Shown in pieces: positions 2,472 through 11,499 of a stretch of DNA of 64,000 bases (position 1 is its first letter; the number at the start of each line of letters is the position of its first letter). The position numbers were made by a program, and so were the translations under genes. Origin of the DNA: an uncultured Bdellovibrionales bacterium (GTDB lineage: Bacteria; Bdellovibrionota; Bdellovibrionia; Bdellovibrionales; UBA1609); NCBI GenBank assembly GCA_903833275.1, contig CAILEP010000016.1, positions 1 through 64,000 of the forward strand, in the 5' to 3' direction. The notes beneath the pieces are model-generated. The model saw nothing but the letters and a program-made list of their open reading frames with translations. It made no database searches and had not been told where the DNA came from.

Positions 2472-2855
2472 ATGTCTACCTACTCACTGACCGATATAAC
2501 AGATTCCGTAAAAGCAAAAGGCGAAAACTCTACCTTGCTGCGGTTCTCGAGCGAAGGTATTAGCCCCGCGTACGCCTCGAAAATTCTGGTTACTTATCTG
2601 TTGGCCGAATGGCCACTTACGGGCAGCGATCGCGAAGCCCTCAGATGTTATGCGATGGTGCTACCCCACGGCAAAGTTCACGCGGTTGAAGTTTTTTTTC
2701 TGCGCCAAACAACGGCGGAGACTCTGACCGGCGATTATCTGGGCTCTTCGAAAATATTTTCCGTTAATTTTAAAGATAACCAATACGACCCAGCCGTCGA
2801 TGACTCATTGTCTGAAAATATTTGGTCGAAAGTTTGCAATTATGTGCCGAGCTAG
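2472..2855 (+). CDS. Hypothetical protein, first gene of the cytochrome operon
   Basis: This is a 127-residue soluble protein with no signal peptide, no heme motif and no recognised family. It has mixed alpha/beta character with a conserved-looking centre (SKILVTYLLAEWPLTGSDREALRCYAMVL). Only a weak SD (AAGAAG) precedes the ATG. Its end overlaps the start of the tetraheme cytochrome gene by 14 bases, which argues that it is expressed and co-translated with the operon. A cytoplasmic accessory or assembly role is conceivable, but nothing in the sequence shows it. Confidence 0.6.
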   Translation: MSTYSLTDITDSVKAKGENSTLLRFSSEGISPAYASKILVTYLLAEWPLTGSDREALRCYAMVLPHGKVHAVEVFFLRQTTAETLTGDYLGSSKIFSVNFKDNQYDPAVDDSLSENIWSKVCNYVPS

Positions 2856-3324
2856 CGCTCTGTTTGCACTTTTGTTTACGTTGACGGCGCAAGCCGCCGA
2901 TGAGGCCCTTGAGCATTGCACTCAGTGCCACAGGACATTTTCCAGAAATACCACTTCTCTCGAAACTGCAGGCTTTAAGAAAGACCACCCCGAATTTGAA
3001 ATGCAACACATGAAGAACCCGAAGGGCTGCATTCTATGCCATGCCCAGAGCAGCCCAAATCATCTCGTCGCACTCGATGGGCGATTGCTAAAAGTCGATG
3101 AGACCCCGCAGCTTTGCGGCCAATGCCATGGGCCCATCTTTTTTGACTGGCAATCTGGTCTTCACGGAAAACTTACTGGTAAGGGCACCGAGCGCGAGCA
3201 TCGATTGCTCTGCTTCGAGTGCCACAACCCGCATAAACCAAAATTTAAAATTATGAAAGCCGAGCCGCCACCCGCTCGACCGAAACTTGGCATCAACACA
3301 AGAGGACACGATGAGCACAACTGA
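2842..3324 (+). CDS. Periplasmic tetraheme cytochrome c
   Basis: The product starts with a Sec signal peptide (MCRASALFALLFTLTAQA). Four CXXCH heme sites follow: CTQCH, CILCH, CGQCH and CFECH. The start at 2842 gives a complete signal peptide; an upstream in-frame ATG at 2800 would place 14 extra residues before it. The pattern 'CHGPIFFDWQSGLHGK...CFECHNPHKPKFKIMKAEPPPARPK' reappears in the reverse-strand gene ending at 6940, so the two are paralogues. The gene overlaps both neighbours by 14 bases. As a small periplasmic electron carrier it would take electrons from the iron-sulfur/NrfD pair encoded downstream. The exact redox partner is inferred. Confidence 0.88.
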   Translation: MCRASALFALLFTLTAQAADEALEHCTQCHRTFSRNTTSLETAGFKKDHPEFEMQHMKNPKGCILCHAQSSPNHLVALDGRLLKVDETPQLCGQCHGPIFFDWQSGLHGKLTGKGTEREHRLLCFECHNPHKPKFKIMKAEPPPARPKLGINTRGHDEHN

Positions 3325-4282
3325 AAAACCAAGAGGCACGAAGATTGAGAAAATGACCGAGGCCGCACTTGCCGCCCCACTGAAGCGCCGGTCATTTCTA
3401 AAGGCACTTGGTATTACTGCCGCTGCCGTCTCAGCACCCATTGGCACCGCCACCGCCGTCACTGATAAGCTCAAAGACAGTAATTTTTGGGAAACCTACT
3501 TTCAAAAGCACTACAAAGAGATGAGCGCCGAAGACAAGGCACAGGTGTTTGCTCGTATCGAACGCGAAACAAAAACAACTTACGGCGTTGATGTTCATGT
3601 TGGCGATCAGCAACCAATACCGGGTGTGAAATTTGCCTACGCCCTCAATCTCTCTCGCTGCAATGGTTCACGTCGGTGCGTTGAAGCTTGCGTAATTGAA
3701 AACAATCAGTCGCGCCACGAACCGCAGATTCAATACATCAAGGTTCTTGAAATGCCCCGCGGCACGCTCGACCCCGAGCGCGGTGATCTCTATTACGAGG
3801 GCGAAGCTGTACCGAAAAATGACAAGTTCTACCTGCCCGTCCAATGCAATCACTGCGACAACCCGCCCTGCACCAAAGTTTGCCCTGTAGAAGCCACCTG
3901 GAAAGAAGCCGACGGAATCGTTGTCGTGGATTACGACTGGTGTATCGGCTGCCGCTATTGCCAGGCCGCTTGCCCCTATGAAGCGCGGCATTTTAATTTT
4001 GCCAAACCCAATATCCCGGCTGAAGAAATCAACCCCGTTCAAGGCTATTTGAGCAATCGCATTCGCCCGAAAGGCGTCATGGAGAAGTGCACGTTCTGCC
4101 TTCACCGTACCCGTAATGGGCAAAACCCCGCCTGTCACGATGCTTGCCCAACAGGGGCGCGAAAATTTGGCAATATTTTGGATCCAGAAAGTGAATTGTC
4201 AAAAATTTTAAAAGAAAAGCGAGTGTTTGTCTTGAAAGAAGAACTGAATACGCTGCCTCAGTTTTTCTATTATTTTGACTGA
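3311..4282 (+). CDS. Tat-exported 4Fe-4S ferredoxin-type subunit (DsrO/HmcB/NrfC-like)
   Basis: The ATG at 3311 follows AGAGGACACG and gives a 323-residue protein with a twin-arginine signal (KRRSFLKALG, about residues 25-34). Four ferredoxin-type Cys motifs follow. Three are complete: CNHCDNPPCTKVCP, CIGCRYCQAACP and a CX2CX11CX3C set starting CTFC. The first reads CNGSRRCVEAC, with Ser where the second Cys is normally found. Proteins of this class sit on the periplasmic face beside an NrfD-type membrane subunit and pass electrons between quinol and a partner. The NrfD-type gene lies two genes downstream. No molybdopterin subunit is encoded nearby, so cytochromes are the likely partners. Confidence 0.9.
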   Translation: MSTTEKPRGTKIEKMTEAALAAPLKRRSFLKALGITAAAVSAPIGTATAVTDKLKDSNFWETYFQKHYKEMSAEDKAQVFARIERETKTTYGVDVHVGDQQPIPGVKFAYALNLSRCNGSRRCVEACVIENNQSRHEPQIQYIKVLEMPRGTLDPERGDLYYEGEAVPKNDKFYLPVQCNHCDNPPCTKVCPVEATWKEADGIVVVDYDWCIGCRYCQAACPYEARHFNFAKPNIPAEEINPVQGYLSNRIRPKGVMEKCTFCLHRTRNGQNPACHDACPTGARKFGNILDPESELSKILKEKRVFVLKEELNTLPQFFYYFD

Positions 4283-4300
4283 TTAAAAAAGGTAGACTTT

Positions 4301-5707
4301 ATGCGCCACTTATTAAATTTGAAATCTCTTTTCGCCTGCGCGGCGATGATTATCGTTTTGTCGGCTTGCTCTGACAAACGCGCGGCCCCTTCAGCTGCCG
4401 ATACGACACTCAGTAGCCCTGCTGATAAATCGTCGGCCTACTTATATCCGCATAATGAAAACTGGAAGACGGACCACGTTGAATTTTACGCCAAGAATCG
4501 CAAACAAATTGAAGGCTCGACACATGATTGCGTTCTTTGCCATAGCCAGAGACAGAACGCTGGCACTCCGAAAAATTTAAGCTGTGCCGTGCAATGCCAC
4601 GCTCCGATTTCAACGCCAGATGGCAGCAAACCCATCGATTCACCCATTACGAAACCAAGCCAAGTTTGTTTCGAATGCCACAAAGCGAATTTCACTCGCC
4701 AAAAGCACCACTACCCGGCCGCGACGGGCCTTTGCACAACTTGTCACACGGTGAACCCCTCGCACTTAACCGACAAGTCAAAAGCCTCGGTTACTACTGA
4801 TAAATCAAATGAGTCCTGCCTCAAATGCCACAGCAAAATGGACACTCACTCCGAGGTTCATAAAGTTTTGATCACCAAGGCGAATGCCTGCATTTATTGT
4901 CACGACCCCCACGGCTCTACAGCAAACTATTTTACGCGCGATAAGATGCCAGAACTTTGTCTGGACTGCCATGGTGATTTGCTGCACGACAATGCGGTTT
5001 CTTTACATGGGATTATACCTGGCACCGATGACAACAAGCGAAGTTGCGCCAACTGCCACAGCCCACACTCATCCGATGTTAAGCCGTTATTGCTTAAAGA
5101 AAAGAAGAGCCTTTGCATTGATTGCCATGATCGAGAATATCAAACTAAATTTGCCGACGGATCGCCTCGTTTGATACCAAACATCAAAGGTAAAATTACT
5201 GGCCCTAACTTTCACCGACCAGCGAAAGACTCCGCCAACTGTGCGGTGCGCTGCCATACCCCCCATGACAGTCAATACGCTGCGCTTTTGAAAAAACGCT
5301 ACCCAGTAACGCCGTATGAGAAATATTCTCCGGGCAGCGAACCAGATCAAAACTCGTATGACCTCTGCATGCTTTGCCACGAAGACTCGATGCTCAGCAA
5401 AGAAGTCACCGCCGAAGGCACGGCCTTTCGCAATGACATCAAAACCGCCGACGGAAAGATTGAACGAACAAATTTACATTGGTTTCACGTCGTCAATGCG
5501 GCGGGCTCGCAGGACCCGAGCAAGGGCCGATCTTGTTTTGTTTGCCACGACCCCCATGGCAGCGAACAAGAGCACAATATTAAAACTTCATTTCGACTCA
5601 ATGGCACGACCAACGTCAATATTGTATACAAGGCCACTGCAACAGGTGGCTCTTGTGCGATGACTTGCCATAGTGACGACATAAAGAAATACAATCGAGT
5701 CGAATAG
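4301..5707 (+). CDS. Multiheme c-type cytochrome lipoprotein (up to 13 hemes)
   Basis: The 468-residue product starts with a lipoprotein signal ending LSAC (Cys near residue 23). It carries ten CXXCH sites, several in the paired form 'CHDPHGS' or 'CHSPHSS', and three CX3CH sites (CAVQCH, CAVRCH, CAMTCH). It belongs with the paired-CXXCH multiheme proteins. Its C-terminal 60 residues (CFVCHDPHGS...GGSCAMTCH) match the end of the 11-heme protein encoded at 9588-10625. It lies between the iron-sulfur and NrfD-type genes, so it is probably the electron acceptor of that membrane module. The lipid anchor could place it on either membrane. Whether the CX3CH sites bind heme is open. Confidence 0.9.
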   Translation: MRHLLNLKSLFACAAMIIVLSACSDKRAAPSAADTTLSSPADKSSAYLYPHNENWKTDHVEFYAKNRKQIEGSTHDCVLCHSQRQNAGTPKNLSCAVQCHAPISTPDGSKPIDSPITKPSQVCFECHKANFTRQKHHYPAATGLCTTCHTVNPSHLTDKSKASVTTDKSNESCLKCHSKMDTHSEVHKVLITKANACIYCHDPHGSTANYFTRDKMPELCLDCHGDLLHDNAVSLHGIIPGTDDNKRSCANCHSPHSSDVKPLLLKEKKSLCIDCHDREYQTKFADGSPRLIPNIKGKITGPNFHRPAKDSANCAVRCHTPHDSQYAALLKKRYPVTPYEKYSPGSEPDQNSYDLCMLCHEDSMLSKEVTAEGTAFRNDIKTADGKIERTNLHWFHVVNAAGSQDPSKGRSCFVCHDPHGSEQEHNIKTSFRLNGTTNVNIVYKATATGGSCAMTCHSDDIKKYNRVE

Positions 5708-5725
5708 CTTTCTGGAGTAACTGTA

Positions 5726-6943
5726 ATGGGCCTAAAATCATATGCAATTTTTTGGTTTCGGATGATCACCTATGCATTTAGCGGAGGTAGAAATTTTAAC
5801 CTTTGGGTTTGGTTTCTACTGCTGCTTATGGCGCCGGGTTTCTGGGCCTACTATCATCAATTTACAGAAGGCCTCATTGTCACTAACATGTCTGACCAAG
5901 TCAGTTGGGGCGCGTACATAGCCAATTTTACTTTTCTAGTGGGTGTGGCTGCAGCGGCCGTACTTCTCGTTGTACCGGCCTACGTCTACCATCATCAACC
6001 CACTAAAGAGATTGTGCTTCTGGGCGAGTTACTTGCTGTTTCGGCTATCTTCATGTGTCTGCTTTTTATTATGGTTGATATGGGCCGACCAGACCGATTC
6101 TTTCACGTATTGCCGATTGTGGGTCACCTTAACTTCCCCCGCTCGGTGCTCGCCTGGGACGTGATCGTGTTGAACGGCTACCTCTTTCTGAATGCGCACA
6201 TCTCAGGCTATTTGCTCTACATGAAATATTTGGGCCGCACCCCCAATAAGATGATCTATATGCCCGTCGTGTTCATTTCAATTCTTTGGGCCATTAGTAT
6301 TCACACGGTGACGGCGTTTCTCTACTCGGGCCTCGGGGGCCGACCGTTTTGGAATACGGCCATTTTGGCACCACGTTTTCTTATCAGCGCTTTTGCCGGC
6401 GGCCCCGCTATACTCACGATTGCTTTTCGTACTATTCAGAAGTTTAGCAAAATGAACGTAGATGAAAAGGTTTTCGATCTGCTTAAGCAGATCGTTGCGG
6501 TTACAATGCCGATAAATATGTTTTTACTTGGCTGCGAGCTTTTTAAAGAATTTTATACTGACAGCACTCATGTCGCGTCGGCGAAATACCTATACTTCGG
6601 GCTGCACGGCGCCCACATGTTGCAACCTTATATTTGGGGTGCCATAACCATGGACACCATTGCGCTCATCATATTTGTTACCCCGTACTTGCGGCGAAAC
6701 AATCGCGTTTTTTTAATTGGCTGCGTGCTCGCGATAGTTGGGATTTGGGTTGAAAAAGGAATGGGGCTAATAATACCAGGCTTCATACCGTCGCCCTTGG
6801 GCGATATCGTCGAGTACATTCCTTCGTTGCACGAAACGCTCATTTGTATTGGGATCTGGGCGTGGGGCGGCCTCATCTACTCTCTACTTGCCAGAGTCGC
6901 CATTGGCGTCCTAACCGGTGATCTCAAAGAGAAAACCATTTAG
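5726..6943 (+). CDS. NrfD/DsrP-family quinol-interacting membrane subunit
   Basis: The 405-residue product has about ten membrane segments. It carries family-typical stretches such as 'QVSWGAYIANFTFLVG', 'VDMGRPDRFFHVLP' and 'HETLICIGIWAWGGLIYSLL'. It resembles the DsrP/HmcC/ActC-type branch of the NrfD superfamily, whose members exchange electrons with menaquinol or ubiquinol through an attached periplasmic iron-sulfur protein. GGAG precedes the ATG. It is the last gene of the forward operon. Its 3' end overlaps the end of the converging cytochrome gene by four bases. Direction of electron flow (quinol oxidation or reduction) cannot be read from sequence. Confidence 0.88.
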   Translation: MGLKSYAIFWFRMITYAFSGGRNFNLWVWFLLLLMAPGFWAYYHQFTEGLIVTNMSDQVSWGAYIANFTFLVGVAAAAVLLVVPAYVYHHQPTKEIVLLGELLAVSAIFMCLLFIMVDMGRPDRFFHVLPIVGHLNFPRSVLAWDVIVLNGYLFLNAHISGYLLYMKYLGRTPNKMIYMPVVFISILWAISIHTVTAFLYSGLGGRPFWNTAILAPRFLISAFAGGPAILTIAFRTIQKFSKMNVDEKVFDLLKQIVAVTMPINMFLLGCELFKEFYTDSTHVASAKYLYFGLHGAHMLQPYIWGAITMDTIALIIFVTPYLRRNNRVFLIGCVLAIVGIWVEKGMGLIIPGFIPSPLGDIVEYIPSLHETLICIGIWAWGGLIYSLLARVAIGVLTGDLKEKTI

Positions 6944-7458
6944 ATTTTGTGCGCCTCTTCGCCTGATTCGAATTTTGGCCGAACGGGCGGTGGCGAAGCC
7001 TTCATTATTTTAAATCGGACTGAATGCGGCGAATGGCAATCGATACAATTCAGTTGCTCCTGATCGAGCGACCACCCACCGGTCCGCTTGCCGTGAAGGC
7101 CCTTTTGCCAATCGAGAAATCGATCTTGGTGGCATTGTTTGCAGACGGGCGATGGGTTTGTGAACGAAACCGAGGGGTCATCCGAAATTCTTAATTGATT
7201 AGAACGATTACGATCGTGGCAGCTGCCACATGACAAGACAACTCGACCGTGCTGTTCGTGAATAGTTTCATGAGAAAGTAGCGTCTTAGTCTTTGACGAA
7301 ATGTACTCATTTGCTTTCTTCGCATGGCAGTCTTGGCAATGAGCTGCTTGGGCCGGTGGAGAGTGCGGCCTCAAATGCACAGCCGAGGCCGCGGAAGGCT
7401 GGGCAACGGCGAAACCCGCAGCCACCCCTACCAACACAATTGCAATACTCTTTTTCAT
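6940..7458 (-). CDS. Periplasmic tetraheme cytochrome c (paralogue of the one at 2842)
   Basis: A signal peptide (MKKSIAIVLVGVAAGFAVA) is followed by four CXXCH sites: CQDCH, CGSCH, CKQCH and CIDCH. The second half (CKQCHQDRFLDWQKGLHGK...FKIMKASPPPVRPK) aligns closely with the forward-operon tetraheme, which shows duplication. The start at 7458 has GGGA nine bases upstream; an in-frame ATG at 7473 overlaps the preceding gene and is less likely. It is the last gene of the reverse cytochrome operon. The role is a periplasmic electron carrier, possibly the partner equivalent to its paralogue. Confidence 0.87.
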   Translation of the reverse strand: MKKSIAIVLVGVAAGFAVAQPSAASAVHLRPHSPPAQAAHCQDCHAKKANEYISSKTKTLLSHETIHEQHGRVVLSCGSCHDRNRSNQLRISDDPSVSFTNPSPVCKQCHQDRFLDWQKGLHGKRTGGWSLDQEQLNCIDCHSPHSVRFKIMKASPPPVRPKFESGEEAHKI

Positions 7459-7459
7459 T

Positions 7460-7771
7460 TTACTGAATCCCATTTGAACCGTGACAAGTTAGGCAATACC
7501 GAGACTCGCCACCGTTTTTTATCTCCCTGTTAAGTTTATCGACATCAATACTCGCGCCCGGCCGCTGATGAATATTAAGTGCGGCGTTGTGGCAAAGGAG
7601 ACAGTCCTTTCGGCCCCAACCTGCCCAGTGCTTAGCAGGGCTGTCTAAAATTATCGCCCCGGGCATAGACCCCAGGTCGCCGTAATTTTCTCGATCTCGA
7701 ACATCAGACCCACATCCTACGGTTGCCACCAAGAGCTGAGATAAAATAGCTAAATAAACAAGTCGCCTCAT
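7460..7771 (-). CDS. Diheme cytochrome c lipoprotein
   Basis: This is a 103-residue protein. Its N-terminal hydrophobic segment ends TVGCGSD, a reasonable though not perfect lipobox (Cys near residue 20). Two heme sites follow, CLLCH and CLTCH. The ATG at 7771 overlaps the stop of the upstream 7-heme gene as ATGA, which indicates translational coupling. It is small for a cytochrome and resembles the short diheme subunits found beside larger multiheme proteins. It is likely membrane-anchored and periplasmic. Its specific partner is unknown. Confidence 0.8.
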   Translation of the reverse strand: MRRLVYLAILSQLLVATVGCGSDVRDRENYGDLGSMPGAIILDSPAKHWAGWGRKDCLLCHNAALNIHQRPGASIDVDKLNREIKNGGESRYCLTCHGSNGIQ

Positions 7772-8349
7772 TTAACCCCCAAATGGCAATCGGCGCAGTA
7801 AGACTTTGTGTGACAAGCATCGCATCGCTGGGGCTGTGCACGCGCCTGCACCGAGTGATAAAAACGATAATTTTTAGGGTGATTCTGCAGGTCAATATCG
7901 TTACGCCGCAAATGGCATTTTGAGCATTGTGAAACTGCATGACAGTCATTGCAAGACTCGCCTTTTACTTTGGCCTCGAGCGAGTGACTATTTCGCCAAG
8001 AAATACTCTCGTGGTTCACCGGCTTGATTTTCTTGATGTCTTCCATCCCCTTGTGGCAGGTAAAACACGCTTTAGGCGCTTCTTTGTATTGCGAAAGATC
8101 CGAGCGATGACACTCATGACAAATTTCTTTAACGGGGCGATTTAAAATGCTTTTTGTCGCTGCCACCGAAAACGAAATTCTCTTTTCTTTTTGGTCCATA
8201 TTAAAATTATGGCAATGCATACAATCAATCTTGTTTGGCTTAAAAACTTTAGATAAATGGGCTTGGTGGTCAAACCCCGCCGTCATTTGCGAAAGAGCAA
8301 AAGTGGGCTGGGCTGTTAAAATGAACCAAATGCCTATAAATGTCTTCAT
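7768..8349 (-). CDS. Periplasmic heptaheme cytochrome c
   Basis: The product starts MKTFIGIWFILTAQPTFA, a Sec signal peptide. Seven CXXCH sites follow: CMHCH, CHECH, CFTCH, CNDCH, CSKCH, CDACH and CADCH. Scattered extra His residues (FDHQAH, VNHESISW, FYHS) could act as distal ligands, as in class III cytochromes. The ATG at 8349 overlaps the stop of the barrel gene as ATGA and has GGGGCGAGCG upstream, so this start is well supported over the ATG 12 bases earlier. Encoded directly behind an outer-membrane barrel, it is a candidate for the cytochrome that inserts into or docks on that barrel. Confidence 0.88.
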   Translation of the reverse strand: MKTFIGIWFILTAQPTFALSQMTAGFDHQAHLSKVFKPNKIDCMHCHNFNMDQKEKRISFSVAATKSILNRPVKEICHECHRSDLSQYKEAPKACFTCHKGMEDIKKIKPVNHESISWRNSHSLEAKVKGESCNDCHAVSQCSKCHLRRNDIDLQNHPKNYRFYHSVQARAQPQRCDACHTKSYCADCHLGVK

Positions 8350-9581
8350 CGCTCGCCCCAATAGAGATAGTTCAATCGCGCCAAGGTTCTAAAATCATCC
8401 TTCAAAATATTGTTTGAACTGGCCTGGCCACCGACCGTAAGTTTAAAGGCATGCCCCAAAATACGACTCCAACCGACTTCACAGGTGTAAGCTTCGCGCT
8501 TCGAAGAAGTGATTTTTTCATAATGAGTGACGTCAAGCAGCCCGTAATATTCGTTGGCTTTCGACAATGCCTTTTGCCCGCCCATGCGCACGCCGACGAC
8601 CTTGCCTCCGTAACTGTCGAAGTAATACAAAACCGTGTTGAAATTAAGCCCCGGGTCGGCCGCAAATCGCGCTTCGACCTCAGCACCAGTGCCGTGAGTA
8701 CGCTCTGTTGGTAAAAGTTGATATTCGTCATAGAAGGTCGAAACACTGGCGATCAGGCTCGAGTTTAATTTGCGTTCAAGCTGAAATCGCCCCTCATAAA
8801 GCCGACCAGTCGAGAAAATCGAAAAAATAGGTTGTTCGATACCCGATCGAGCGGGCACGTCGTAAGTCATAAACCGAAATTTAGAGAAGGTCATAATCGT
8901 CGGGTACACATCGACGCCAACTTCGAAGCGATTAAGATTCGAGGTGTTGGCATCCGAAACCGAATCAATCATGAGCTCAGGGCCCCAGGCCGAAGCAATC
9001 GGTTTGCGACCTGTGACCTCCACCAAATTCTCGGTAGAGTTGCCGTTACTGGGGTTTGTTCGATTCATGAATTTGGTGCCGACAAAGAGTGGTAGCGCCT
9101 CATCGGTGTGAAAATCGGCGCGCACTCCTGAAACGTTTGATTTCAAATCTGAGTCGAATGCTTCAAGCGCGCGCTCGACCCCGACAAAGCCACCCAATTT
9201 AAGCTGCCGGCTAAAGAGACTGAGCTCTGCCGAAACCATATCCACTGACGAAGCCCCAATCGTGTTAATCATATCAAACGAACGTCCAACACGTACGCTC
9301 AGACGATCGGGCACGGCTTCGAAACGAGCATCAAAAATATAGAGAGACGCCCTATTGTTGCTATTGCTCGTGGGGTCAGTAAACAAACTGAAATCGCAAT
9401 TGATCTCAACGTCACGTTTCTCAGTCACATAAGACGTCGAAACAAATTCATAGGTCGGCGACTCAACACGAAACTGCTCATTTCGACGAAACGAATTAAG
9501 CGTCTCTGACTGGGCTCGAAACAGACCAGCAAAAACTGGTAACGAAAAAATGAGAGAAAACGATAAATAAAGATATCTCAT
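8346..9581 (-). CDS. Outer-membrane beta-barrel protein of the cytochrome operon
   Basis: The 411-residue product has a signal peptide (MRYLYLSFSLIFSLPVFA). Alternating hydrophobic/aromatic strands run throughout (for example FNTVLYYFDSYGGKVVGVRMGG, given here as strand-turn-strand), with no Cys-heme motif. It is shorter than MtrB-type barrels. Its place between an 11-heme and a 7-heme cytochrome is that of the porin in porin-cytochrome conduits of metal-reducing bacteria. It is coupled to the 7-heme gene by ATGA and lies six bases after the 11-heme gene. Barrel identity is fairly safe; a conduit function is inferred from context and needs structural support. Confidence 0.72.
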   Translation of the reverse strand: MRYLYLSFSLIFSLPVFAGLFRAQSETLNSFRRNEQFRVESPTYEFVSTSYVTEKRDVEINCDFSLFTDPTSNSNNRASLYIFDARFEAVPDRLSVRVGRSFDMINTIGASSVDMVSAELSLFSRQLKLGGFVGVERALEAFDSDLKSNVSGVRADFHTDEALPLFVGTKFMNRTNPSNGNSTENLVEVTGRKPIASAWGPELMIDSVSDANTSNLNRFEVGVDVYPTIMTFSKFRFMTYDVPARSGIEQPIFSIFSTGRLYEGRFQLERKLNSSLIASVSTFYDEYQLLPTERTHGTGAEVEARFAADPGLNFNTVLYYFDSYGGKVVGVRMGGQKALSKANEYYGLLDVTHYEKITSSKREAYTCEVGWSRILGHAFKLTVGGQASSNNILKDDFRTLARLNYLYWGER

Positions 9582-9587
9582 CTTCGG

Positions 9588-10625
9588 TTACCGCCCCGGC
9601 TCGTTGCTAAACGGTTTTACACGGTCGTATGTTTTCTCGTTATGACAAGCCGCCATGCAAGTACCGCCCGACTTTGTCGCCTTGAATTGAATTGGCACTT
9701 GCCATTCATCAAATTTCATTTCGGTTCGAATCAGGTGGGGCTGGCCCGCGGCGTGCGCGTCGTGACAAGAAAAACACTGCGCCTTAATTCGACTTTGTAA
9801 ATGAAAGTCGTGCAAATTCTCGAGCCCATTTCGAAATTGAGTGCTCGAATCACCAACCGCGTTCTTGATAAGCAAACTTTTATGACAACTTAAACACAAA
9901 GCGAAACCCGGCGCTTGGTATGGGGTTTTCAAAAAAGCTGCAGCCGACGAGCCGTGAGGGTCATGACACAAATCGCATTGCCCCTCTGCCACTGGCTTGT
10001 GCTTAAACGGATTGTCTTTAAGCAACTGGCCGATGTTAGCGATCGACTGCCCATTGCGTTTCGTCTGAATCTTGCCATGGCAATTTAGGCAAACTCGGCC
10101 TTCAGGCGCCTTTAGCAAATGTTTTTCTTGCGAAAAATGACCCTCGTGACAGTTGAGGCAACCTCGATCTTGGCTTAGCACCGCCCCATGGGCCTCGTGA
10201 ATCTTAGTCTTGATCTCAATATGACAAGATAGACAAAGCTCACTTACAGGGTTTCTCTTCAAGAGATGGCGATTCTGCGAACCATGCGGATTGTGACACT
10301 CTACGCAGCTTTTTTCGGCAATTGCTTTGTGAACGACCTTGTGGCCCCCGCTTGATTTATCATCGTGACAGACTATACAAAGTGCATTTACGTCATCGCG
10401 CGAAATCACTTTCAATTTAGGGTGAGCCGTAGCGCTCTTAGATATGGTCTCGCCAGGTCGATGACAAACCGAACAGTCATTCGCCCTTAACGGTCGATGC
10501 AAGAAAGGGGTTTTTAGAAGCTGGTCATGGCAACCACTTGTGGAGCAAGACTGGATTTGCCCCGATGCCTGCGCAGAGTGCGCAAAAAACAGGACCAAAT
10601 AGAAAATAAAACTAACTAACCTCAT
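9588..10625 (-). CDS. Multiheme c-type cytochrome (up to 11 hemes), paired-CXXCH type
   Basis: The 345-residue product has a Sec signal peptide (MRLVSFIFYLVLFFAHSAQA) with no lipobox. It has nine CXXCH sites, several as 'CHNPHGS' or 'CHDPHGS', plus an N-terminal CX4CH (CSTSGCH, residues 27-33) and a C-terminal CX3CH (CMAACH). Its last third parallels the 13-heme lipoprotein at 4301-5707. It is the first gene of the reverse operon, with a 274-base divergent promoter region ahead. It probably forms a long periplasmic or barrel-associated heme wire. The closest functional analogue is uncertain. Confidence 0.88.
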   Translation of the reverse strand: MRLVSFIFYLVLFFAHSAQASGQIQSCSTSGCHDQLLKTPFLHRPLRANDCSVCHRPGETISKSATAHPKLKVISRDDVNALCIVCHDDKSSGGHKVVHKAIAEKSCVECHNPHGSQNRHLLKRNPVSELCLSCHIEIKTKIHEAHGAVLSQDRGCLNCHEGHFSQEKHLLKAPEGRVCLNCHGKIQTKRNGQSIANIGQLLKDNPFKHKPVAEGQCDLCHDPHGSSAAAFLKTPYQAPGFALCLSCHKSLLIKNAVGDSSTQFRNGLENLHDFHLQSRIKAQCFSCHDAHAAGQPHLIRTEMKFDEWQVPIQFKATKSGGTCMAACHNEKTYDRVKPFSNEPGR

Positions 10626-10716
10626 AGGGCCCTACAAATTCTAAGTCGACTCGATAAGTTGTGAATTTATGCCGACATTTTGAGGCGCGCACCAATTAAT
10701 TTGAGTTCTTTTTGTA

Positions 10717-10744
10717 ACCAACCATTTATACAATCCCGGTTGGT
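10717..10744. promoter_or_regulatory. Inverted repeat in the divergent cytochrome promoter region
   Basis: ACCAACC (10717-10723) and GGTTGGT (10738-10744) form a 7-base inverted repeat with a 14-base spacer. The repeat lies between the divergent starts of the 11-heme operon (10625) and the cytochrome c4-like gene (10900). The position suits a shared operator. No FNR-type TTGAT-N4-ATCAA site was seen in this region. Confidence 0.35.
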
Positions 10745-10871
10745 ACTCGTTTTAAAAGTGAGACAAAATGTCGCGGCCCAAGTGCGTAATATTAGAATAT
10801 TTTACGAAGCTAACGACTATTTCTTGAGCAACTACTGCCGTTAAAATATTGTGAGGGTAACCACGAAGCAT

Positions 10872-10889
10872 CACTTCTCAGGCGAAGTG
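10872..10889 (+). promoter_or_regulatory. 5' leader hairpin next to the cytochrome c4 SD site
   Basis: CACTTC-TCAGGC-GAAGTG is a 6-base stem with a 6-base loop. It ends two bases before the strong GGAGG SD (10891-10895) of the cytochrome gene. A hairpin so close to the SD may affect ribosome access or transcript stability. Only the complementarity is observed. Confidence 0.35.
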
Positions 10890-10899
10890 TGGAGGTCTT

Positions 10900-11499
10900 A
10901 TGAAAAAAGCATATTGTCTGATCGCACTCACTCTCTTTCTCTTCAATCACGCCTTGGCTGATGACATCGGCGAAATTGCGAAGGCGAAATGCCTTAAGTG
11001 TCATGCAAACGACCCGGCTTCTAACGACTCCCCCCGACTAGGCGCCCAAACCCCCGAGTATATATTCCAGACCCTCAAAGACTATCAAGCTGGCAATCGA
11101 CGCGGTGTGGACGCTCTCAAATTAATGACCAAGAAACTGAAAGGCATGGATGAAGCAACCCTCAAGGGTCTTGCCGAGTACTTTGCTAAGACTGAACCTC
11201 TGCCTCCGGTAGTCGGCGATGCAACACTCATGGCTCAAGGCAAAGATATTTATGAAAATGGAATCAAAGGCAAAGACGTTCGCGCCTGCGCCGATTGTCA
11301 CGGTCATGCAGGAGAAGGCGGTGGCGATAACAGTGCCCTAAACCCTCGCGTTGCCGGCCAGTGGCAGTGGTTTCTGTACAATCAACTCGCCGCCTACAAA
11401 AGCCAAGATATCGTCAATCAAAAGAAAATGACAGAAATGGCAGCCAAAATGTCGGATATTGAAGCCAAGGCGGTCACAACCTACATGCAGGCTCTCTAA
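10900..11499 (+). CDS. Diheme cytochrome c4-like protein
   Basis: The 199-residue product starts with a signal peptide (MKKAYCLIALTLFLFNHALA). It has two similar class I cytochrome c halves, with heme sites CLKCH (about residue 31) and CADCH (about residue 130). Candidate Met ligands occur in 'ALKLMTKKLKGM' and 'KKMTEMAAKM'. The length and two-domain form match cytochrome c4/c553-type soluble carriers, which shuttle electrons in the periplasm to oxidases or from quinol-oxidising complexes. It is transcribed away from the 11-heme operon and has a strong GGAGG SD. Confidence 0.88.
   Translation: MKKAYCLIALTLFLFNHALADDIGEIAKAKCLKCHANDPASNDSPRLGAQTPEYIFQTLKDYQAGNRRGVDALKLMTKKLKGMDEATLKGLAEYFAKTEPLPPVVGDATLMAQGKDIYENGIKGKDVRACADCHGHAGEGGGDNSALNPRVAGQWQWFLYNQLAAYKSQDIVNQKKMTEMAAKMSDIEAKAVTTYMQAL

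Follow-up and report, generated by a model that had tools for sequence, protein, structure and literature searches.

A putative porin-cytochrome conduit of an undescribed family, encoded beside a DsrOP-like quinol module in a relative of Bdellovibrio

Introduction

Geobacter and Shewanella are well-studied cases of extracellular electron transfer, and in Geobacter it has been hard to match the inner-membrane oxidases to the outer conduits. Porin-cytochrome conduits are already known as a kind (PMC4245776, PMC6148476), as is the quinol module of NrfD and a multiheme cytochrome (PMC9386147). Here we analysed a locus at positions 2842 to 11499 of the first 64 kb (hereafter the window) of the 240-kb contig CAILEP010000016.1, which belongs to a genome of 3.08 Mb and 97% completeness. 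Two convergent operons are found there (Table 1), a forward one encoding the tetraheme CytA4, an iron-sulfur (Fe-S) protein, the multiheme Cyt13 and an NrfD-type membrane subunit, and a reverse one encoding the multiheme Cyt11, a beta-barrel protein (Barrel), the heptaheme Cyt7, the diheme Cyt2s and a second tetraheme, CytD4; an earlier note on this DNA had read both together as an electron route from quinol to the outer membrane. We establish the gene content of the locus, the families and conservation of its products, and that the two modules co-occur and have exchanged genes; for the barrel, a 22-strand structure free of a plug is predicted. Our best reading is that these genes serve extracellular respiration, with a DsrOP-like quinol module coupled to a porin-cytochrome conduit whose family has not been described before. 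The host would belong to the Bdellovibrionota, because close homologues of the locus lie in metagenome-assembled genomes (MAGs) named Bdellovibrionales, Bdellovibrio sp. and Oligoflexia. This is a phylum of predatory bacteria, and the host is related to the predator Bdellovibrio; the open PMC literature searched yielded no account of extracellular electron transfer for this phylum.

Comparison with described systems

The Pcc systems of Geobacter combine barrels of 18-22 predicted strands with periplasmic partners of 5-14 hemes and highly variable surface cytochromes (PMC4245776). OmbB-OmaB-OmcB, ExtABCD and ExtEFG (PMC4245776, PMC6148476) resemble the present locus in a barrel of ~400 residues, a multiheme partner and a variable lipoprotein cytochrome, and also in that partner and barrel co-diverge while the surface cytochrome does not. 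In contrast, their published descriptions contain no adjacent NrfD/Fe-S unit, and the present locus additionally encodes an 11-heme MtrA-like cytochrome, a heptaheme and a diheme lipoprotein. The Barrel family gave no NCBIfam or Pfam match to Pcc models, OmbB and OmaB being compared by their published descriptions. With MtrCAB, MtoAB and PioAB the locus shares a barrel together with an MtrA/DmsE-like periplasmic multiheme, as the Cyt11 profile matched PDB entry 6r2q chain A, which we take to be MtrA (the label of the database record being wrong), with an E-value of 1.8e-25. It differs from them in the size of Barrel (~410 residues and 22 modelled strands against 26-28), in the extra heptaheme and in the score of Cyt11 with the DmsE/MtrA-family model TIGR03508 (102.5 bits, cut-off 192.2); judged from its sequence, Cyt11 is clearly related to MtrA although it stays below the DmsE-family cut-off. 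The family comparison that the earlier note proposed for the barrel came out negative for MtrB, since MtrB_PioB (PF11854) matched neither Barrel nor anything else in the genome, and an MtrB-type conduit was rejected.

PCC4 clusters (PMC5566968) come closest to the concept of a porin set that has a partner at the inner membrane, although the membrane protein is a different one. They contain a porin together with several multihemes carrying 4, 5 or 10 hemes; subgroup II adds a pfam13247 Fe-S protein, encoded next to an inner-membrane protein. The latter has five transmembrane helices and paired HX13H motifs (cytochrome-b-like), whereas the sole inner-membrane protein of the present cluster is NrfD/DsrP and lacks this five-helix, two-HX13H pattern; the heme counts also differ, and PCC4 is without a lipoprotein 13-heme cytochrome. 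Similarly, in the Geobacter cluster ExtHIJKLMNOPQS (PMC5877670) a porin-like protein and several multihemes are encoded together with a quinol-type unit of the inner membrane, but this unit consists of a Rieske/cytochrome b set instead of NrfD, and ExtKL is a selenoprotein. The ExtKL model was matched weakly (E 1.2e-4) by one of 33 Cyt7 homologues. The forward operon resembles DsrMKJOP and the CISM-type modules (Cbc4, SirCD, MBNT15 clusters) in its DsrO-like Fe-S protein, DsrP-type NrfD and multiheme partner, but differs from DsrMKJOP in that DsrMK is missing from the cluster, a tetraheme takes the place of the triheme DsrJ and the module is joined to a barrel operon. As dsrA had no match in the genome at E<=0.001, sulfate reduction was rejected.

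Results

Linkage of the two operons

We consider it likely that both operons form a single electron route linking the quinone pool with the cell surface, and the cell can probably exchange electrons with something outside. Across the phylum (369 genomes), this NrfD was detected in all 17 genomes with a close Barrel homologue and in 14 of the 352 others (p=3e-21, from counts that ignore shared ancestry), and within the order (141 genomes) exactly the same nine genomes carry the close Barrel and this NrfD (9/9 vs 0/132). All genes of both sets form a single run on one strand in a relative of the same genus (L013), and both sets lie side by side in five further loci (L014, L016-L019). Genes are also swapped between the sets: a CytD4 homologue stands directly beside NrfD in six loci (L084, L089, L164, L168, L169 and L178), and in one genome (G327) a Cyt11 homologue lies in the NrfD locus, away from Barrel. 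Both modules have their nearest relatives in G029, a genome from a different family; there they lie on separate contigs and show identities of 59% for Barrel, 62% for Cyt7, 59% for Cyt13, 82% for the Fe-S protein and 80% for NrfD; the corresponding values for G129, from the same genus as the host, are only 33% (Barrel), 44% (Cyt7), 65% (Fe-S) and 64% (NrfD). In the window itself the stop codons of NrfD and CytD4 overlap by 4 bases (6940-6943), and the reverse operon is tightly packed, with gene overlaps or short gaps all along. Co-occurrence, the single run and the gene swaps support the route proposed in the earlier note, and neither of the two outcomes that it had named as speaking against the route appeared: close homologues of the reverse operon were never seen without NrfD, and the model of Barrel has 22 strands and no plug rather than the form of an ordinary solute porin.

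Several points weigh against this reading. Besides the shared ancestry ignored by the counts, the distances of Barrel and NrfD are barely correlated (r 0.09, p 0.23), this NrfD is missing from 10 of the 14 genomes of the phylum with distant conduit homologues, the outlying Barrel/Cyt7 clades have a strong NrfD in only two of 12 named genomes, and NrfD itself occurs without a close Barrel in the 14 genomes counted above. The AlphaFold model of Cyt7, built from 33 homologues and without hemes, reached a predicted local distance difference test score (pLDDT) of 73 and had no fold match in the PDB, and NrfD complexes can work in both directions. A Barrel-NrfD mirror-tree correlation of 0.27 was dropped, as it hung on a Barrel fragment in one genome (G022) and was gone without it. 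From the barely correlated distances it follows that the modules re-pair over time, and as distant conduits are often without this NrfD, the conduit would be a module able to take other inner-membrane partners. We conclude that the pairing of quinol module and conduit is functional but modular.

The conduit

Structure prediction of Barrel with AlphaFold2 led to 22 strands without a plug (pLDDT 81.6), and the top template modelling (TM) scores in Foldseek, 0.61-0.65, were to 22-strand TonB-dependent receptors. Such receptors hold a plug of ~150 residues, and the lumen space that it takes there is free in the modelled Barrel. Solute porins have 16-18 strands; as modelled, Barrel is wider than these and narrower than MtrB, of which no structure was found among the top 50 Foldseek matches. 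When Barrel was compared with Pfam, NCBIfam and PDB sequences, singly or as a family of 28 members, only weak single-member matches at chance level were obtained. Cyt7 is present in all 31 Barrel genomes of the phylum and adjoins Barrel in the loci read, so that the two show the general mark of a porin-cytochrome system, a barrel beside a multiheme gene with both kept together; all heme Cys and His residues of Cyt7 are invariant in its 33 homologues. Almost all complete conduit loci include Cyt2s. Divergence runs in parallel in Barrel, Cyt7 and Cyt11 (r 0.87-0.88), and the distance matrix of Barrel correlates equally with those of Cyt7 and Cyt11 (r 0.875 and 0.877), which does not single out one of them as its partner.

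The block Cyt11-Barrel-Cyt7-Cyt2s-CytD4 is syntenic in independent related MAGs, and its core of Barrel, Cyt7 and Cyt2s recurs in Bdellovibrionota and in MAGs of Binatia and Deltaproteobacteria. Among the 369 Bdellovibrionota genomes 31 encode Barrel, and a second phylum has it in 21 of 46. In other phyla the core mostly follows a larger multiheme protein of another type, which has 10 to 28 CXXCH. At one locus (L043:5653-8667) a multiheme of 1004 residues with 28 CXXCH and five variant sites stands directly upstream of Barrel, at the place of Cyt11; at two others (L047:9674-10936 and L048:3174-4349) the Cyt7 homologues have 14 CXXCH in ~400 residues, as though the heptaheme had been doubled. 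In one MAG (L085:1493-2773) the Barrel gene is split into two frames by a TAA inside the match, with intact neighbours.

The quinol module

NrfD matched the DsrP model NF045798 with 404.8 bits (cut-off 350), and all seven homologues examined also match this model; the family comparison proposed in the earlier note for this subunit thus came out positive for DsrP. The Fe-S protein scored 191.4 bits with the DsrO model NF045797, narrowly under the cut-off of 200. Its gene probably starts at ATG 3311 and not at TTG 3287, as judged from the sequence, and the copy translated from 3317 contains 15 Cys. A CytA4 homologue is syntenic beside the Fe-S and NrfD genes in L013, L016, L017, L018 and L019.

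The gene for Cyt13, a paralogue of Cyt11 with 33% identity, lies between the Fe-S and NrfD genes in the window and also in G029, where the operon order is unchanged. Another lipoprotein-like multiheme, of 8 to 16 sites, separates or flanks the two modules in most relatives. Such variability at the place of Cyt13 fits a fast-changing surface cytochrome, from which we infer its surface location and regard Cyt13 as a candidate surface terminal cytochrome. Neither operon was found to encode a terminal reductase of a soluble substrate.

ResB-like cytochrome c assembly genes, matched by Pfam, follow NrfD in L018 (517-2169) and L019 (5648-7130), and further ResB-like sequence, judged by eye, adjoins conduit or quinol genes in L081 (2969-6288). 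A second NrfD of the genome is part of an alternative-complex-III-like set at L020:7367-14182 (G000:C8:37366-44181), consisting of a pentaheme, a molybdopterin/Fe-S fusion of 1054 residues and NrfD, with a ResB gene near; as this set lies elsewhere, the assignment of the present locus to alternative complex III was rejected.

Heme sites and gene list

The seven c-type cytochromes contain 38 CXXCH (4, 10, 4, 2, 7, 9 and 2 in the order of Table 1) and five variant sites, three CX3CH in Cyt13 and one CX4CH and one CX3CH in Cyt11. These counts agree exactly with those of the earlier note, and the Tat-type Fe-S protein, the NrfD subunit and the barrel that it had named are likewise all present, with the signatures of Table 1. 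In the rest of the 64 kb a single other frame of at least 100 codons has any CXXCH, and that is one site. All ten matches to the paired-CXXCH family in the 3.08-Mb genome fall within the locus, in Cyt11 and Cyt13, so the enrichment is far from chance. The variant sites probably bind heme, because the Cys-Cys-His columns of those in Cyt11 are invariant in seven of seven aligned homologues and the CX3CH at residue 314 of Cyt13 is replaced by a plain CX2CH at the equivalent place in three homologues.

Table 1. Genes of the locus, with positions in the window.
Product	Position	Strand	Signatures
CytA4, secreted tetraheme cytochrome c, first quinol-module gene	2842..3324	+	4 CXXCH; Cytochrome_C7 29.8 bits
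Tat-exported 4Fe-4S protein, DsrO/QrcC/TtrB-like	3311..4282	+	Fer4_11 81.5 bits; Tat motif KRRSFLK
Cyt13, lipoprotein-type multiheme cytochrome	4301..5707	+	10 CXXCH + 3 CX3CH; lipobox LSAC; 468 aa
NrfD/DsrP-type quinol-active membrane subunit	5726..6943	+	PF03916 149.6 bits; DsrP NF045798
CytD4, secreted tetraheme cytochrome, CytA4 paralogue	6940..7458 (start 7458 or 7473)	-	4 CXXCH
Cyt2s, small diheme lipoprotein	7460..7771	-	2 CXXCH; lipobox TVGC
Cyt7, heptaheme cytochrome, constant barrel partner	7768..8349	-	7 CXXCH, 28 aa per heme
Barrel, outer-membrane beta-barrel protein, ~410 aa	8346..9581	-	22-strand AlphaFold2 model
Cyt11, MtrA/DmsE-like cytochrome, 345 aa	9588..10625	-	9 CXXCH + 1 CX4CH + 1 CX3CH
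Diheme cytochrome c, two class-I domains	10900..11499	+	Cytochrome_CBB3 41.5 bits; 2 CXXCH

The last gene of Table 1, divergent from Cyt11, has a weak likeness to PdsA (62.9 bits, cut-off 330). It is probably a neighbour and not part of the conduit; no counterpart was found in the eight homologous loci checked, and a conduit role was rejected on this ground.

Discussion

In the proposed mechanism the DsrP-type NrfD and its Tat-exported 4Fe-4S partner would oxidise menaquinol (or ubiquinol) at the inner membrane and reduce the periplasmic tetrahemes CytA4 and CytD4, from which electrons would cross the outer membrane through an insulated conduit formed by Barrel, Cyt7, Cyt11 and Cyt2s. Cyt13, whose counterparts in relatives have very different heme numbers, would then probably pass them to an extracellular acceptor, possibly Fe(III) or Mn(IV) oxide, humics or another cell. 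The identity of the cytochrome inside the barrel, the outward direction, the surface location of Cyt13 and the substrate are what we infer here beyond the genes themselves. Given a single route, outward flow appears quite likely. It is preferred because the genome contains two COX1 genes and has no match to RuBisCO, consistent with a respiring heterotroph, and because in Shewanella the Fe-S protein SirC and the NrfD-type SirD can stand in for CymA as quinol dehydrogenase (PMC11434368).

The same conduit might run inward, from an extracellular donor (Fe(II) or a partner cell) via Cyt13, Barrel/Cyt11 and CytA4/CytD4 to quinone reduction by NrfD or to a cytochrome oxidase. MtoAB/PioAB and the proposed PCC3 and PCC4 conduits do so (PMC5566968), the two COX1 genes would suit it as well, and a diheme cytochrome adjoins Cyt11; the missing RuBisCO match and the lack of conservation of that diheme at homologous loci argue against it, neither strongly, and we consider inward flow unlikely. 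Alternatively, the operons might be independent neighbours, with the DsrOP-like quinol module working for a periplasmic reductase and the conduit receiving its electrons from another source; this would explain why the trees of Barrel and NrfD barely match and why each module is found without the other in distant genomes. It is quite improbable in view of the co-occurrence in phylum and order, the swapped genes, the joint inheritance in G029 and the missing soluble-substrate reductase. Finally, an ordinary solute porin admitting a soluble substrate to cytochromes that act as its periplasmic reductase can practically be dismissed: porins and ushers are among the best Foldseek E-values and one distant Barrel member weakly matches an Opr porin model, but the plug-free 22-strand prediction with its receptor-like TM-scores, the strict heptaheme pairing, the lipoprotein-like multihemes of 8 to 16 sites adjoining Barrel and the lack of any catalytic reductase family in the cluster all speak against it.

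Measured against the open PMC literature, the Barrel family and its heptaheme partner appear to be new, as do the linkage between conduit genes and those of the quinol unit and the occurrence in this group of hosts. It is possible, and we suggest this only tentatively, that the porin-cytochrome family is unrelated to Mtr and Pcc and that its 22-strand barrel and constant heptaheme form a common socket into which lineages plug different quinol units and surface cytochromes, the DsrOP type having been hard-wired in some Bdellovibrionota, so that relatives of predators would be electroactive. If the electron route proposed here is right, a whole quinone-to-surface chain would be encoded in one locus, in which inner and outer parts are joined by genetic linkage, and the core of barrel, heptaheme and diheme would provide a new marker for genome surveys.

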